Under the pieces are notes generated by a model. The model did not search any database. It was given only the letters and a program-made list of their open reading frames with translations, and was not told the origin of the DNA. This document shows positions 23,440-59,233 of a stretch of DNA of 64,000 bases, in pieces. The stretch is taken from the NCBI RefSeq assembly GCF_014639315.1, contig NZ_BMFY01000001.1, positions 62,001 through 126,000 of the forward strand, written 5' to 3'. The position numbers were made by a program, and so were the translations under genes. How positions within the stretch are numbered: the first letter of the stretch is position 1; each line of letters starts with the position of its first letter. The DNA comes from Sediminivirga luteola. GTDB taxonomy: Bacteria; Actinomycetota; Actinomycetes; Actinomycetales; Brevibacteriaceae.

Positions 23440-23460
23440 CGCCCCGGGGGGCCGTGACGG

Positions 23461-23735
23461 ACGCCTGGCCGTGGTCTGCCGGCGTCATCGGGCGCCGATG
23501 CGCGTGTGCCCGGGGCGGGTGGACGCTGGCCGTGGTCTGCCTGGGGCCTCGGGCCTAGATGCCCCTGTGCCTGGAGCGGGTGGACGCTTGGGGGGTCCTG
23601 CCGGGGGCCTCGGGCCTTGATGCGCGTGTGCCTGGAGCGGGTGGACGCTGGCCGTGGTCTGCCGACGTCATCGGGCGCCGATGCGCGTGTGCCCGGGGCG
23701 GGTGGACGCTGGCCGTGGTCTGCCTGTGCGACCGA
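23461..23735 (+). repeat. 61-bp minisatellite, four copies plus a partial fifth
   Basis: The 475-bp space between the isomerase and proC holds tandem units starting with ACGCTGGCCGTGGTCTGCC at 23461, 23523, 23584, 23645 and 23706. The period is 61 bp (62 for the first, which has an extra C). Units 1 and 4 are nearly identical, units 2 and 3 form a second subtype, and unit 5 is cut after about 25 bp. The period is not a multiple of three, and no frame through it looks coding. The array resembles mycobacterial MIRU/VNTR loci in size and placement. Confidence 0.9.
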
Positions 23736-23914: not shown

Positions 23915-24739
23915 ATGACGCAGCTGGCATTCATCGGCGCCGGATCCATGGGCTCGGCCCTCATCGAGGGCCTGCTGGCCGGGGGACACCCGGTGGACGG
24001 CATCACCGCCACCACGGGGAGCGCGGCGAGTGCGCAGGCACTGCACGATCGGCTCGGCGTCCAGGCAGTGGCCCTCGCTGATGATGCCGACGCCAACCGC
24101 CGGCTGGCGTCCGGCGCGGACATCGTCATCCTCGGGGTGAAGCCCTGGATGATCCGCGAGACGCTCGCGGGGCTGGGCCCGCTGCGCGCGGACCAGGTGC
24201 TCGTCTCCGTCGCCGCTGGCATCACCATCGGCACGCTCCGCGATCTCAGCGGGGAGGCGCCCGTGGTCCGGCTCATGCCCAACACGCCCACCGCCATCGG
24301 CCTCGGCGCCTCGTCCCTGTCCGTCGCCGATGATCCCTCCCCGGCGGAGGAGGCCGCCGCCGACCGGGTGACCGAGCTGTTCGCGCCCACCGGAGTGATC
24401 GTGCGGCTGCCGGAGGACCAGATTCCCGCGATGACGGGGATCGCCGGTTCCGGCACGGCCTACTTCTACCACCTGGCCGAAGTCCTCATCGAGGCCGGAG
24501 TGCGGGAAGGCCTCGACCGGGAGACGGCAGTGCGGCTGGTGCACGCCACGGCCCACGGAGCCGGCGCCATGCTGGCCCGCGGCGCCGACGACGCCGGCAC
24601 GTTGCGCGGCAAGGTCACCAGCAAAGGCGGGACGACCGCCGCGGCGCTCGCGGTCTTCGCTGAAGCCGGCTTCCCGGAGGTGGCGCACCGCGCCGTCAAA
24701 GCCGCCGCCGACCGCGCCCGTGAGATGGCCGCCGAGTAG
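23915..24739 (+). CDS. proC: Pyrroline-5-carboxylate reductase
   Basis: Last step of proline synthesis, NAD(P)H-dependent. 274 aa. The N-terminal Rossmann motif is FIGAGSMGSALIEGLLAGG (about 5-23). The NPT segment is VRLMPNTPTAIGLGAS (about 120-135). The dimerisation domain contains the family signature GIAGSGTAYFYHLAEVLIEAG and KVTSKGGTTAAAL (about 231-243). A strong AAGGAGA ribosome site lies 3-4 nt before the ATG. A possible -10 is TAGGGT near 23854. Confidence 0.97.
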   Translation: MTQLAFIGAGSMGSALIEGLLAGGHPVDGITATTGSAASAQALHDRLGVQAVALADDADANRRLASGADIVILGVKPWMIRETLAGLGPLRADQVLVSVAAGITIGTLRDLSGEAPVVRLMPNTPTAIGLGASSLSVADDPSPAEEAAADRVTELFAPTGVIVRLPEDQIPAMTGIAGSGTAYFYHLAEVLIEAGVREGLDRETAVRLVHATAHGAGAMLARGADDAGTLRGKVTSKGGTTAAALAVFAEAGFPEVAHRAVKAAADRAREMAAE

Positions 24740-24815: not shown

Positions 24816-24877
24816 AACAACCGCCTAGTGACAGAACACCACCGTCTACGGTGGTGTTCTGTCACTAGGCGGTTGTT
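24816..24877. repeat. Long perfect palindrome, copy 1 of 2
   Basis: Two perfect 30-bp arms (24816-24845 and 24848-24877) are separated by a 2-nt CT centre. The arm starts AACAACCGCCTAGTGACAG and ends CACCGT. It lies 77 bp after the proC stop and before the 3' end of the convergent DUF559 gene, so as RNA it could act as a bidirectional terminator. Copy 2 lies at 26177-26248. The two copies differ at three arm positions, and each change is matched in the opposite arm. Confidence 0.9.
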
Positions 24878-24904
24878 CTACGGGCGCGCTGCGAGGCGGA
24901 GGCC

Positions 24905-25006
24905 CGGGCGGAGCAGGCGGCTTGCGGGCGGCGGGGCTCACGAGTGGCGAGCGGCTTGCGGGGCTCCCGAGTGGCGGGGTGCCCGAGTGGCAGGCGGCTT
25001 GCGGGC
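24905..25006 (+). repeat. Degenerate GAGTGGC/GCGGCTTGCGGG repeats next to palindrome copy 1
   Basis: GAGTGGC occurs three times (about 24942, 24970 and 24985), interleaved with GGCGGCTTGCGGG-like words. Together they fill the space between the palindrome and the stop codon of the DUF559 gene. Confidence 0.6.
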
Positions 25007-26044
25007 TCAGACGCGCACACCTGCTGCGCGTAGTTTGGCCGCAGTCCTCGCGGGATCGATGAGGTCTGCCCACTCCAGACGCACGACCGTATAGCCGAGA
25101 GCCCGGATGGCGTCTTCGCGTCTCTTCTCCGCGCGGAATGCGTGCAGGGCAGCGGCACGATCCTCAGCCGGGTACTTTGACCATCCGTCCACCTCGACCA
25201 CAATGCGTCCGATCAGGAAGTCCACGCGCGCGATCTCTTGGCCCTCGCGGTTCAGCAGACGCACCTGCTGGCGATAGGCGCCGGTGAGGCCGAGTACGTC
25301 CAGCACTGCGATAGCCAGGCTCTCCGCCGGGCTCTCCGAGAGCCCGCGGGCCAGCCGCAGCACCTTCACATAACGCTTCGCCGCGGCCGACGACCGGCAC
25401 CGGGACGCCTGGGCATGCGCCGCGCGAAGTCGCTCTGACACAGGTTGTGAGTACACCTCCACGACCGCGGGTGAGTGGTCCGGTGTGATGATGCTCCTGC
25501 CACGCAGCAGATGATCCGCGGCTGTGATCGCCGCGGCGAGTCCCGCATCGGCGGCCAGATCGCGTACGGTCGCCCACGGCGAGGTGACCGGCCTGCCGAG
25601 GACGCTGCTGACCTCGGCCGCTTCCCTGGGCGGCCGGTGCATCCGGATGTGAGCGGTGCGCCGGGAGATCGGCCCGCTGTACTCCAGCAGCTCCGGTACG
25701 GCGGAAATGATCGGCAGGCCGTGCAGTACGGCTGCCGAGACATGGCTCACCACGGCGCCGGCGGGAGGCCGGCGCAGGACCAGCCGGGCTCTGTGCCATG
25801 CGAGCTGCGCCTTCGCCTTGTCCTGGACGCTGGCATCCGGCCGCCTCCCGGCTGCGACCGTCTGCAGCCAGCGTTCATCGTCGATGAAGGAGTGGAACAT
25901 GCGGTGCTCGTCCGCTTCGCAGAGCTGGAAGACGGCGTAGATCCCGCGGGCTGCACGTGCGACGCAGCAGCCGAGCGCTGAGTCGAGGATGCGCCTGCCA
26001 TCCGGGAGGATCGCGATGCGCTGGCGGGTGAATGAGTTGAACAT
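25007..26044 (-). CDS. DUF559-type protein with predicted PD-(D/E)XK nuclease-like C-terminus
   Basis: 345 aa. The C-terminal part (about 235-345) matches the Vsr/DUF559 endonuclease-like layout: a Glu-containing helix SPAESLAIAVLDVLG, then IARVDFLIGRIVVEVDGWSKY. There the Asp and the Glu-x-Asp after the strand form the usual D...ExD site. A helix with basic residues and the strand YTVVRLEWADLI follow. The N-terminal two thirds resemble AbiEi-like proteins common in actinobacteria (AVVSHVSAAVLHGLPI). Function unknown; related genes are seen in defence or mobile contexts, but no partner is present here. The gene lies between the two palindrome copies, so it may be a cassette inserted between proC and acuC. 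Confidence 0.7.
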   Translation of the reverse strand: MFNSFTRQRIAILPDGRRILDSALGCCVARAARGIYAVFQLCEADEHRMFHSFIDDERWLQTVAAGRRPDASVQDKAKAQLAWHRARLVLRRPPAGAVVSHVSAAVLHGLPIISAVPELLEYSGPISRRTAHIRMHRPPREAAEVSSVLGRPVTSPWATVRDLAADAGLAAAITAADHLLRGRSIITPDHSPAVVEVYSQPVSERLRAAHAQASRCRSSAAAKRYVKVLRLARGLSESPAESLAIAVLDVLGLTGAYRQQVRLLNREGQEIARVDFLIGRIVVEVDGWSKYPAEDRAAALHAFRAEKRREDAIRALGYTVVRLEWADLIDPARTAAKLRAAGVRV

Positions 26045-26127
26045 GGTGCCAGCATGGCCGTACCGCAGGGCGCCAGCCAGGGATCCGGTCCATCATGTGG
26101 AGGGACGCCTCGCGACCAGGCTCCTGT

Positions 26128-26176
26128 GACACGGCGCGGCTACGCCGTGCACGGCACAGCGGAACGCCGTGCCGCG
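26128..26176. other. Two small hairpins directly upstream of palindrome copy 2
   Basis: CACGGCG-N6-CGCCGTG, then GCACGGC-N10-GCCGTGC, lie back to back and lead straight into the long palindrome. This gives three stem-loops in about 120 bp between the DUF559 start and the acuC stop. Confidence 0.6.
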
Positions 26177-26248
26177 CGCAGAACAACCGCCTGGTGACAG
26201 AACGACACCGTCTACGGTGTCGTTCTGTCACCAGGCGGTTGTTCTGCG
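26177..26248. repeat. Long perfect palindrome, copy 2 of 2
   Basis: Two perfect 35-bp arms (26177-26211 and 26214-26248) share the same CT centre and the same core AACAACCGCC-T-G-GTGACAGAAC as copy 1. It starts 18 bp after the acuC stop on the minus strand, a natural place for a terminator, but no T-tract follows in either direction. Confidence 0.9.
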
Positions 26249-26266: not shown

Positions 26267-27469
26267 TCAGTCGTAGTAGGGGTCGAGACCGTAGAACGGG
26301 AACACGCACTTGCGGGTGTTCATCACCGCGCGGTCCAGCTCCGAGCCCGGGTCGTAGCCGTCCGTCCACGGCGCCACCGGGGGCAGCTCGGCCTCGCCCA
26401 TGTGCCGGGGGGCGTCCCGCCCGGTCAGCTCCAGCACGTACTCCCGCCAGCGTTCCGGGGTCTCCGATGTGTACGCCAGCTCGGCGCCCGCGGCGATCGC
26501 CACCAGGTTCACCCACACCCTCGGCACCACCTCGACCAGCTCGTAGCCACCGCCACCGGTGGCCAGCCATCGCCCGCCGGTGTGCTCCTCGGCCAGTGCG
26601 CGCACCCGCACCGTCGCCTCGCGCATGGCGTCCACGCTCAGCCGCAGATGCGTCAGCGGATCCTGCCGGTGCCCGTCGCAGCCGTGCTGGGAGACGATCA
26701 CCTGCGGCCGGAACTCCCGCACCACCTGCGGCACGACCGCGTCGAAGGCCCGCAGCCAGTCCTGGTCTCCCGTGCGCGGCGGCAGCGCGATGTTGACCGC
26801 GCTCGCGGCGGCGTCGTTGCCGCCGATCTCGTCCGGGTAACCGGTGCCCGGGAACAGGAACCTGCCGTTCTCGTGCAGGGACACCGTGAGCACGCGCGGG
26901 TCGTCCCAGAAGATCGACTCGGTGCCGTCGCCGTGATGGGCGTCCAGGTCGATATACGCAATGCGCTCATAGCCATTGTCCAGCAGATGCGTGATCGCCC
27001 CGGCCAGATCGTTGTACACGCAGAAGCCCGAGGCCTTGCCGTGCATGGCGTGGTGCATCCCGCCGCAGAAGTTCACCGCCCGCGAGTAACGGCCGCTCGA
27101 GATCGCCTCGGCCGCCAGGACGCTGCCCTGATAGATCCGGGCCGAGGCCTCGTGCACCTTGTCGAACCGGGGCACGTCCTCGGTGCCGATGCCGAACTCC
27201 TCCCGCACGCTCGCGGCGATGTCGGCGCTCACCTCCGCGTTCCGGACCGCCTGGACGAACTCCGGCGCATGCACCCGCGCCAGGGACTCGTCGGTGGCCA
27301 CCCCCGGCGCGGCGATGTGCACGCGGCTCAGATCGAAGAGCCCCATGTCGATGGCGAGCTTGGCGGTGAGGTCCAGCCGCAGGGGATGCATGGGGTGGGT
27401 CGGGCCGAAGTTGTACTCCGAGAACGACTCATCCCACACCACGAGGACCTCGGTGGCGTCAGCGCTCAT
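26267..27469 (-). CDS. acuC: Histone deacetylase-superfamily protein AcuC
   Basis: Zinc-dependent deacetylase; in other bacteria AcuC removes acetyl groups from acetyl-CoA synthetase. 400 aa. Active-site blocks are GGMHHAMHGKASGFCVYND (about 135-153) with the His pair, AYIDLDAHHGDGTESIF (about 170-186) with metal-binding Asp/His, SQHGCDGHRQDPLTHL (about 255-270) with the second metal Asp, and ATGGGGYEL with the C-terminal glycine loop. No acs or acuA gene is adjacent. On the minus strand TAGGCT (27481-27476) ends 6 nt before the ATG, so the mRNA is probably leaderless. Confidence 0.93.
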   Translation of the reverse strand: MSADATEVLVVWDESFSEYNFGPTHPMHPLRLDLTAKLAIDMGLFDLSRVHIAAPGVATDESLARVHAPEFVQAVRNAEVSADIAASVREEFGIGTEDVPRFDKVHEASARIYQGSVLAAEAISSGRYSRAVNFCGGMHHAMHGKASGFCVYNDLAGAITHLLDNGYERIAYIDLDAHHGDGTESIFWDDPRVLTVSLHENGRFLFPGTGYPDEIGGNDAAASAVNIALPPRTGDQDWLRAFDAVVPQVVREFRPQVIVSQHGCDGHRQDPLTHLRLSVDAMREATVRVRALAEEHTGGRWLATGGGGYELVEVVPRVWVNLVAIAAGAELAYTSETPERWREYVLELTGRDAPRHMGEAELPPVAPWTDGYDPGSELDRAVMNTRKCVFPFYGLDPYYD

Positions 27470-27475
27470 GGAGAC

Positions 27476-27481
27476 AGCCTA
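27476..27481 (-). promoter_or_regulatory. -10 box TAGGCT, leaderless start of acuC
   Basis: TAGGCT on the minus strand is followed by six bases and then the acuC ATG. No ribosome site. Confidence 0.6.
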
Positions 27482-27604
27482 TGTGCTTCGCGCCGGTGGT
27501 GCGCGCGCCGGACGCCCAGGGCGTCTACACTGCCTGAAGATCGACACACCGGCCGTGCACCCGCCGGCCGGCCGATGGAGCCGTCAAGGCTCGAGAGGAG
27601 AGGC

Positions 27605-29014
27605 GTGCCCGCGTCCATCCGCCCGTTGCTGTCCCGCTTCGGCCGGGCCCTCACCGCAGGAGTGCGGTGGCTCCGGGACGTCATCGATGAAGTCGCCTCC
27701 TCCACGCCGGCCCGGCTGGCGCTGGTCTCATTCACCGCCGTGGTGCTCGTATTCGTGGGCCTGCTGAGCCTGCCGGTCTCCTACCGGGGCGAGGGCGCGG
27801 CGGAGTTCAACGTCGTCGTGTTCGTCGCCGTCTCGGCCGTGTGCGTCACCGGCCTGACGCCCGTCATCACGGAGCAGTACTGGTCGGAATTCGGCATCAG
27901 CGTCATCACCCTGGCCATCCAGGTGGGTGGCCTGGGCATCCTCACCCTCGCGTCCATCATGGGCATGGCCGTGTCCAAGCGCCTCGGCGTGCGGCAGAAG
28001 CTCATCGCCGCCCAGGCCACGAACGCCGTGAACCTCGGTGCCGTCGGCACCCTGCTGCGGGTCGTGGTGATCACCGTTCTGACCGCCGAGGTCATCGTCG
28101 CGGCACTGCTGTTCCCCCGCTTCCTCGCCCGCGGCGAGGAGTTCGGGGATGCGCTCTGGTACTCGGTCTTCTACTCCATCTCCGCGTTCAACAACGCCGG
28201 CTTCACCATCCACCCCGGCGGGATGGCCCATTTCGCCGATGACCCGTGGATCCTCCTCGTCGTGGCCCTGGCGGTGTTCGTCGGCTCGCTCGGGTTCCCG
28301 GTGATCCTGGTGCTCTCCCTGGCGTGGCGACGGCCGAAGAAATGGGATCTGCACACCCGGCTCACGCTCACCGTCTCGCTCGTCCTGGTCGTCATCGGCG
28401 CCGCCCTGCTGGCGCTCTTCGAGTGGAACAACGAGCGCACGCTGGGGTCGAAGGGGTTCTGGCAGACGGTCCTGGAAGTCGTCTTCGCCGCGGTCATGCC
28501 CCGCTCGGGCGGATTCGCGACGATGGACATCGCCGATATGCATCAGACCTCCCACCTGGTCCTGGACATGCTGATGTTCATCGGCGGCGGCTCCTCCTCC
28601 ACCGCCGGCGGGATCAAGGTCACGACCCTCGCGGTGCTGCTGCTGGCCGCGCTCGCCGAGGCGCGGGGCCTGGACGACGTCTCGGTGTTCCACCGGCGGA
28701 TCAGCCCGGCGACGATCCGGCTGGCGGTGGCCGTGATGCTGGTGGGCGTGGCCACCGTCGTCGGCGGCAGCATCATCATGCTGCACGTGACCAAGCTGCC
28801 GCTCGACCTGGTGCTGTTCGAGGTCACGAGCGCCTTCGGCACGAGCGGACTCACCTCCGGCGTGAGCGAGGCCTCGCCGCCGGCGGGCAGATACGTCTTA
28901 AGCGTGCTGATGTTCCAAGGCAGACTGGGTACCATCACACTCGCTGCGGCGCTGGCGCTGCAGAACCAGAAACGTCTGTTCAGGTATCCCGAGGAAAGGC
29001 CGATCATTGGATAG
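27605..29014 (+). CDS. trkH: TrkH/KtrB-type potassium uptake channel subunit
   Basis: Membrane channel for K+ uptake. 469 aa with about eight to ten hydrophobic helices in four M1-P-M2 repeats. Selectivity-filter loops are seen at VCVTGLTPV (about 79-87), SAFNNAGFTIHPGG (about 195-208), PRSGGFATMDIADM (about 298-311) and SAFGTSGLTSG (about 408-418). Each has the single Gly typical of Trk/Ktr. GTG start with GAGGAGAGG directly upstream; an in-frame ATG 30 nt earlier is possible. The end overlaps the trkA start by 8 bases. Confidence 0.92.
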   Translation: MPASIRPLLSRFGRALTAGVRWLRDVIDEVASSTPARLALVSFTAVVLVFVGLLSLPVSYRGEGAAEFNVVVFVAVSAVCVTGLTPVITEQYWSEFGISVITLAIQVGGLGILTLASIMGMAVSKRLGVRQKLIAAQATNAVNLGAVGTLLRVVVITVLTAEVIVAALLFPRFLARGEEFGDALWYSVFYSISAFNNAGFTIHPGGMAHFADDPWILLVVALAVFVGSLGFPVILVLSLAWRRPKKWDLHTRLTLTVSLVLVVIGAALLALFEWNNERTLGSKGFWQTVLEVVFAAVMPRSGGFATMDIADMHQTSHLVLDMLMFIGGGSSSTAGGIKVTTLAVLLLAALAEARGLDDVSVFHRRISPATIRLAVAVMLVGVATVVGGSIIMLHVTKLPLDLVLFEVTSAFGTSGLTSGVSEASPPAGRYVLSVLMFQGRLGTITLAAALALQNQKRLFRYPEERPIIG

Positions 29015-29693
29015 GACCACCCGCCGGATGAAGGAGGAGGCGCAGTCGCCCGTGCTCGTCATCGGGCTGGGGCGCTTCGGCTCGTCCACGGCGCTGACCC
29101 TGCAGCGGCTCGGCCGCGAGGTCCTCGCGGTGGAGCAGGACGCCCACCTCGTCCAGGAATGGACCGGCCGGCTCACGCACGTGGTGGAGGCGGACACCAC
29201 CAATATCGAGGCGCTGCGGCAGATCGGCGCCTCCGAGTTCGACACGGCGGTGATCGGCATCGGCACCTCGGTCGAGGCCAGCGTGCTGACCTGCGCGAAC
29301 CTCTCGGACCTTGGCATCGGGCAGATCTGGGCGAAATCCATCTCGGTGGCGCACGGCCGGATCCTCAGCCGCATCGGCGCCCATCACGTGCTCTATCCCG
29401 AGTCCGACGCCGGCGCACGCGTCGCCCACCTGGTGTCCTCGCGGATGCTGGACTACATCGAGTTCGACGAGGGCCACTTCGCCGTGGTGAAGATCCCGCC
29501 GCCGCTCGAAGTGCAGGGGAAGCTGCTGAGCGAATCGCGCATCCGGGACAACTACGACGTCACGGTCGTGGGGATCAAGAGCCCGGGGAAGGACTTCACC
29601 TACGCCGAGCCCAGCACTTACGTCTCCCCGGACGACATGCTCCTGGTGGCGGGACAGATCCACCGGATCAACCGCTTCGCCGCCAGGCCCTAG
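29007..29693 (+). CDS. trkA: TrkA/KtrA-type potassium channel regulator (RCK domain)
   Basis: Cytoplasmic gating ring subunit of the K+ uptake system. 228 aa. An RCK_N Rossmann fold VIGLGRFGSSTALTLQRLG (about 18-36) ends in an acidic residue (AVEQD), pointing to NAD(H)/ATP binding. An RCK_C domain follows at about 145-225. The TTG at 29007 fits the upstream GAGGAAAGG and overlaps trkH. An ATG at 29028 is the alternative start and would lose seven residues. Confidence 0.92.
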   Translation: MDRTTRRMKEEAQSPVLVIGLGRFGSSTALTLQRLGREVLAVEQDAHLVQEWTGRLTHVVEADTTNIEALRQIGASEFDTAVIGIGTSVEASVLTCANLSDLGIGQIWAKSISVAHGRILSRIGAHHVLYPESDAGARVAHLVSSRMLDYIEFDEGHFAVVKIPPPLEVQGKLLSESRIRDNYDVTVVGIKSPGKDFTYAEPSTYVSPDDMLLVAGQIHRINRFAARP

Positions 29694-59177: not shown

Positions 59178-59233
59178 ACGAGATGACGGCGCCTCCCCGG
59201 GGAACTCTCACCGGGGAGGCGCCGTCGTCTCGT
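59178..59233 (+). terminator. Strong terminator hairpin after sucD
   Basis: GACGGCGCCTCCCCGG (59185-59200) pairs perfectly with 59211-59226 around a 10-nt loop. The stem extends outward to about 23 bp with one G-U. The rest of the 371-bp space between sucD and uspA holds no gene or other clear element. Confidence 0.85.

Follow-up and report, generated by a model that had tools for sequence, protein, structure and literature searches.

Two long palindromes flanking a DUF559-type gene in Sediminivirga luteola as probable members of a lineage-specific, REP-like repeat family

Introduction

MITEs are short non-coding elements with inverted repeats that occur in many copies per genome, and REPINs and BIMEs are paired inverted REPs. 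The REP elements themselves are short, palindromic and intergenic, are present in many copies, and are found mostly in convergent or unidirectional gaps near 3' ends (PMC3733652). The CGTC REPs occur, like the repeats described here, without a dedicated transposase (PMC3733652). Bidirectional or I-shaped terminators of GC-rich bacteria form strong hairpins at convergent gaps and 3' ends with no clear downstream U-tract (PMC8269248). Quasi-palindromes are known to undergo template switching, which raises their complementarity (PMC7202029).

The present analysis concerns a stretch of 64,000 nucleotides of Sediminivirga luteola (contig NZ_BMFY01000001.1, positions 62,001 to 126,000; the window), in which the two longest inverted repeats, copy 1 and copy 2, flank a single gene. 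The family that contains them is REP-like in distribution and is not a member of the GTAG or CGTC superfamily. It shares with REP elements the many dispersed palindromic copies in one genome (42 sites) and the intergenic location, mostly in convergent or unidirectional gaps near 3' ends. However, it is longer (about 60-70 bp) and consists of a non-palindromic 19-bp unit in head-to-head arrays. The end tag of the GTAG REP/REPtron systems is missing: in the consensus, TAG is confined to the junctions between units, and GTAG spans the centre on one strand. A REP-type transposase (RAYT, Y1_Tnp, PF01797) gave no match in this 99%-complete genome, while control genomes were positive. The CGTC end tag is also missing; CGTC is found only inside the centre CACCGTCTACGG. 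As in REPINs and BIMEs, a short repeated unit forms an inverted pair dispersed in one lineage. The present unit, however, does not form a hairpin on its own, the spacer measures just 2 bp, and further units follow outward in tandem. Like MITEs, the family is short, non-coding and multicopy in one genome, with inverted repeats; unlike in MITEs, no parent transposon was seen among the flanking genes that were read, and no target-site duplication is evident, close relatives offering no empty site that could be aligned. The strong hairpins at convergent gaps and 3' ends, with no clear downstream U-tract, resemble the bidirectional terminators of GC-rich bacteria (PMC8269248), but about 60 bp are shared at 42 places, often beside a second independent hairpin, and the stems are over-long.

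Results

The features of the locus are given below in window coordinates.

23915-24739, + strand: proC, pyrroline-5-carboxylate reductase (Pfam P5CR_dimer, E=1.7e-30)
24816-24877, no strand assigned: family copy 1, palindrome with perfect 30-bp arms (covariance model score 89.1 bits)
24816-24845 and 24848-24877: arms of copy 1, 30 nt, 100% complementary, 2-nt spacer
24846-24847: CT centre of copy 1
24828-24845 and 24848-24865: inner 19-bp-type units of copy 1
24816-24827 and 24866-24877: outer units of copy 1, diverged
25007-26044, - strand: DUF559-type (PD-(D/E)XK-like) open reading frame, 345 aa (homologues reach the PF04480 cut-off; conserved residues)
26177-26248, no strand assigned: family copy 2, palindrome with perfect 35-bp arms (covariance model score 92.8 bits, the best in the genome)
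26177-26211 and 26214-26248: arms of copy 2, 35 nt, 100% complementary, 2-nt spacer
26212-26213: CT centre of copy 2
26194-26211 and 26214-26231: inner units of copy 2, with the outer units further out
26267-27469, - strand: acuC, histone-deacetylase family (Pfam Hist_deacetyl, E=1e-80)

Copy 1 is located 76 nt from the end of proC, and copy 2 is 18 nt from the stop codon of acuC. The first-pass annotation, made from the letters alone, described two palindromes flanking exactly one gene between proC and acuC, and the single reading frame at 25007-26044 on the minus strand is indeed found there. Its account of perfect 30-bp and 35-bp arms with a shared CT centre was exact in the inverted-repeat search of the window, and the comparison of the two copies bears out its three compensated arm differences: A/G at arm position 12 and AC/GA at positions 23-24 (copy 1 numbering), each matched by a change in the opposite arm. 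Both copies have the same orientation, with CT on the plus strand, and rank within the family's three longest in uninterrupted arms. Folded as RNA, they give z-scores of -12.9 to -15.1 against shuffles. The statement that a T-tract is lacking is only partly right. T-rich runs, GGTTGTTCT and GGTTGTTTT, are located within the distal 3' arm, and a consensus-based terminator scan found 13 nested terminator-like structures on both strands, where 0.3 were expected; the location also fits an intrinsic terminator. Apart from the family copies, no other strong hairpin was found behind proC, acuC or the DUF559-type frame. Elsewhere in the window, a long near-perfect inverted repeat (59178-59233, 26-bp arms, 92%) in a convergent gap is unrelated in sequence to the family and resembles an ordinary bidirectional terminator. 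Between an isomerase-like gene and proC, at 23459-23710, a sequence of about 125 bp is present twice in imperfect tandem (81% identity).

The DUF559-type frame sits between the two copies and is not taken to belong to the repeat. Its protein has no Pfam or NCBIfam family match of its own, and the earlier description, "AbiEi-like plus DUF559", is supported in its second part through homologues: two that share 31-34% identity with it reach the Pfam cut-off for DUF559, and the residues R-x-D...D-G-x-x-K-Y are conserved in a 14-sequence alignment. The AbiEi_1 matches are weak. In relatives readable through this region the gene order is proC, then trkA-trkH on the opposite strand, then acuC; compared with the relatives examined, the acuC-trkH-trkA block (26267-29693) is inverted in place here. 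One breakpoint is the proC/acuC interval, which now holds the palindromes and the DUF559 gene, while the other is at about 29.7-30.2 kb, where the inverted-repeat search found no palindrome (about 29.7 kb). None of the relatives examined has a DUF559 gene between proC and its neighbour.

The annotation had proposed a search of the genome and its relatives, and had listed a REP/BIME-like element among its alternatives; the dispersed sites now found support that alternative. Searches with copy 1, with the core pattern and with a covariance model built from 38 aligned copies gave about 42 distinct sites in the organism's own genome (3.86 Mb, 45 contigs), a count that includes one half-site (C11:111870, E = 0.04) and one weaker site (C4:241957). 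With up to 3 mismatches allowed, the core pattern is absent from 38 relatives. A degenerate exact version of the core had no match in 84,980 species genomes or in viral contigs, collections that may omit records very near the window's genome. BLAST against phages and plasmids gave no match to the family. A phage, plasmid or viral origin was rejected on the lack of matches in viral contigs, phages and plasmids. Applied to 396 genomes of the order, the covariance model gave hits in 14 genomes besides the own one; these hits are weak and mostly single, and they look like other palindromes. A single similar hairpin, CAGAACACCCCGTTGCAACGGGGTGTTCTG, is present in some members of the neighbouring genus and resembles an ordinary terminator. 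Comparison with known RNA families gave only sub-threshold matches, the best being to a plant miRNA model, and no description of this repeat was found in the literature.

Several repeats were seen beside the family or in other genomes. In two other genomes of the order (L162 in G096 and L175 in G393), inverted or tandem arrays carry a CAGAACC motif, for example CAGAACCACCTCGCGGTGGT, and are possibly analogous to the family. At the ends of contigs C4 and C16 (L081:5200-5764 and L099:100-720), family palindromes form part of repeated units, spaced about 280 bp, that also contain a second hairpin; each of the two contigs ends within such an array, which assembly may have collapsed. A short direct repeat, GACAGGCATGCGGAAGCCAGGGGAAGTCCCGTTGGAG, in tandem adjoins a family copy at L089:4200-4480.

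Alignment on the centre revealed that CACCGTCTACGG is invariant across copies. It is flanked by conserved GAAC/GTTC blocks, and conservation decays outward. Each arm consists of one to three copies of the 19-bp unit GTGACAGAACACCACCGTA, which may be written (A)GTGACAGAACACCACCGT(A), and the arms are arranged head-to-head about the centre. The self-identity of the arms is 0.53 at lag 19, compared with 0.17-0.35 at the other lags from 10 to 30. The window copies have two units per arm, the outer one being diverged (AACAACCGCCTR). Taken as a whole, the helix shows covariation, mainly at 12-25 bp from the centre. However, the variable dinucleotide 6-8 bp from the centre shows no covariation (10 matches, 10.8 expected), so that the perfection of the hairpin is not strictly kept. 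Uninterrupted arms of at least 17 bp occur in only 9 of the 38 aligned copies, perfect pairing thus being unusual for the family. Together with the behaviour of the dinucleotide, this indicates that strict symmetry belongs to some copies. Copies within 2.5 kb of one another are more alike than distant ones (identity 0.87 vs 0.75, a difference reached in 0 of 5000 permutations), and local duplication therefore contributes to the family.

The location of the copies relative to genes was assessed using gene calls from a simple codon-usage model that had been trained on the window. The 37 placed copies lie in 19 convergent, 15 tandem and 3 divergent gaps, with four further copies at contig edges. 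The intergenic bases of 424 kb of control sequence are 11.7% convergent, 63.8% tandem and 24.5% divergent, which gives a convergent excess with p = 4e-9 and a divergent deficit with p = 0.02. In tandem gaps, 12 of the 15 copies are closer to the upstream stop than to the downstream start. Two of the three divergent copies are upstream of dnaK. This pair (L094:4037-4489), 375 bp apart beside a dnaK-like gene and accompanied by short low-complexity repeats, is an exception to the 3'-end rule. Housekeeping genes, named by eye from translations, adjoin several copies (ilvC, serA, dnaK, glmS and dapB).

About a third of the control convergent gaps contain an unrelated long hairpin, as expected of bidirectional terminators. 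When the family copy is masked, 8 of the 18 family convergent gaps still contain an unrelated strong terminator-like hairpin, no fewer than the controls. Since nearly half of these gaps hold another hairpin, the family copies are not simply "the" terminators, and in these eight gaps the copy is probably not the sole one. The additional hairpin immediately follows the stop codon of the gene on the left at C9:3096 and likewise in the C13 gap. In a relative, G012, the gap that matches C9:3096 is about 40 bp long and has no palindrome, and the C13 and C6:54069 gaps have unrelated hairpins of their own; this comparison covered 1.2 Mb, with too few testable pairs for statistics. The copies thus occupy gaps of conserved gene order, among them convergent gaps conserved in G012, that lack the family palindrome in relatives. 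These gaps, and the independent hairpins in family gaps, make the copies look like additions. In 12 tandem copies, G.U mismatches on the transcribed strand outnumber A.C mismatches by 29 to 11 (sign-flip p = 0.018), which would fit selection on an RNA hairpin, the copies being few.

Discussion

It is important to consider whether the palindromes and the enclosed gene belong together. The first-pass annotation had suggested that the palindromes might be the borders of a mobile cassette carrying the DUF559 gene, or a DNA substrate of its protein. Both copies are near the gene, alike and in the same orientation, and they lie at an inversion breakpoint where the relatives examined have no DUF559 gene beside proC. 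However, this genome has one DUF559-type protein against 42 palindrome sites, about 40 of which lie elsewhere, while relatives have up to 11 homologues and no palindromes; the co-occurrence of palindrome and gene family expected of a nuclease-linked cassette is thus not seen, and the link to the DUF559 protein was rejected on this disproportion. Between ilvC and serA, a second pair of palindromes encloses a GNAT-like gene. A homologue of this gene already follows ilvC in many neighbouring-genus genomes, which are without the repeat. The enclosed GNAT gene is thus ancestral at this place, a result that breaks the cassette idea. Elsewhere, closely spaced pairs surround unrelated genes or no gene, and no sequence is common to the insides of the pairs. 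The cassette was rejected on this last result and the ilvC-GNAT case, and either form of the link is extremely improbable. The DUF559 gene and the repeats are best taken as independent, because the homologue is the only one here, its counterparts in relatives lack palindromes, and the GNAT gene is ancestral.

The copies might instead be plain bidirectional intrinsic terminators, a favoured sequence that was copied to gene ends or arose there by convergence, without any REP-like character. Transcription from either side would form the hairpin with its GC-rich tip, and RNA polymerase would release at the T-rich part of the distal arm. This is the usual reading named by the annotation, and it agrees with the enrichment at 3' ends and in convergent gaps, the terminator-like scan hits on both strands, the family copies being the only strong hairpins behind proC and acuC, the similar single hairpins of the neighbouring genus, and the frequency of stable stems with few U residues at actinobacterial 3' ends (PMC8269248). 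As a whole account it is insufficient and unlikely: close similarity over about 60 bp links 42 sites of a single genome and has no counterpart elsewhere, independent hairpins occur just as often in family gaps as in the convergent controls, some copies are in divergent gaps, the stems are much longer than needed, and tandem 19-bp units and local duplications are present. A binding-site array for a putative chromosome- or element-encoded protein, with the units as operator-like or organiser-like sites and the symmetry reflecting dimer binding, could explain the one to three units per arm and the invariant CACCGTCTACGG and GAAC/GTTC separated by a variable dinucleotide that does not covary, as expected of protein contacts. 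However, the invariant centre may equally reflect a recent common origin, the scarcity of copies in divergent (promoter) gaps argues against an operator, the G.U excess on the sense strand points to RNA, and no candidate protein is known, which makes such an array quite improbable.

We therefore favour, with a probability of roughly 0.65, the reading that copies 1 and 2 belong to a lineage-specific, REP-like interspersed repeat of about 42 copies, which probably serves as a bidirectional hairpin at transcript 3' ends. The family would have multiplied within the lineage, partly through local duplication, and copies would have been retained where they are least harmful, between convergent genes and behind stop codons. 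Many copies would then be transcribed and may act as bidirectional hairpins that end or protect transcripts. That the repeat is put to use at transcript ends is favoured by the G.U excess and by the lack of another strong hairpin behind proC and acuC. It is the copy number alone that suggests mobility, because neither Y1_Tnp nor target-site duplications nor any other mover was identified. The strict matching of the arms in copies 1 and 2 may in part be due to template-switch correction of quasi-palindromes, which would yield compensated differences without selection on the fold; selection of this kind is not required, and a link to the DUF559 protein is not needed. A further proposal, which we consider unlikely, is a new type of repeat: inverted tandem arrays of the 19-bp unit, whose core GAAC-NN-CACCGTCTACGGTG-NN-GTTC would be recognised by a putative protein, multiplied without RAYT and with arms matched by template switching.

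The compensation of arm differences between two perfect palindromes is not in itself a sign that the fold is under selection or that the enclosed gene is linked to the palindromes. The present family adds to the known repeats a palindromic one whose 19-bp unit architecture is unusual and whose GC-rich host genome has no RAYT, and the multiplication of REP-like sequences and the upkeep of palindromes without a transposase therefore become testable in this organism.
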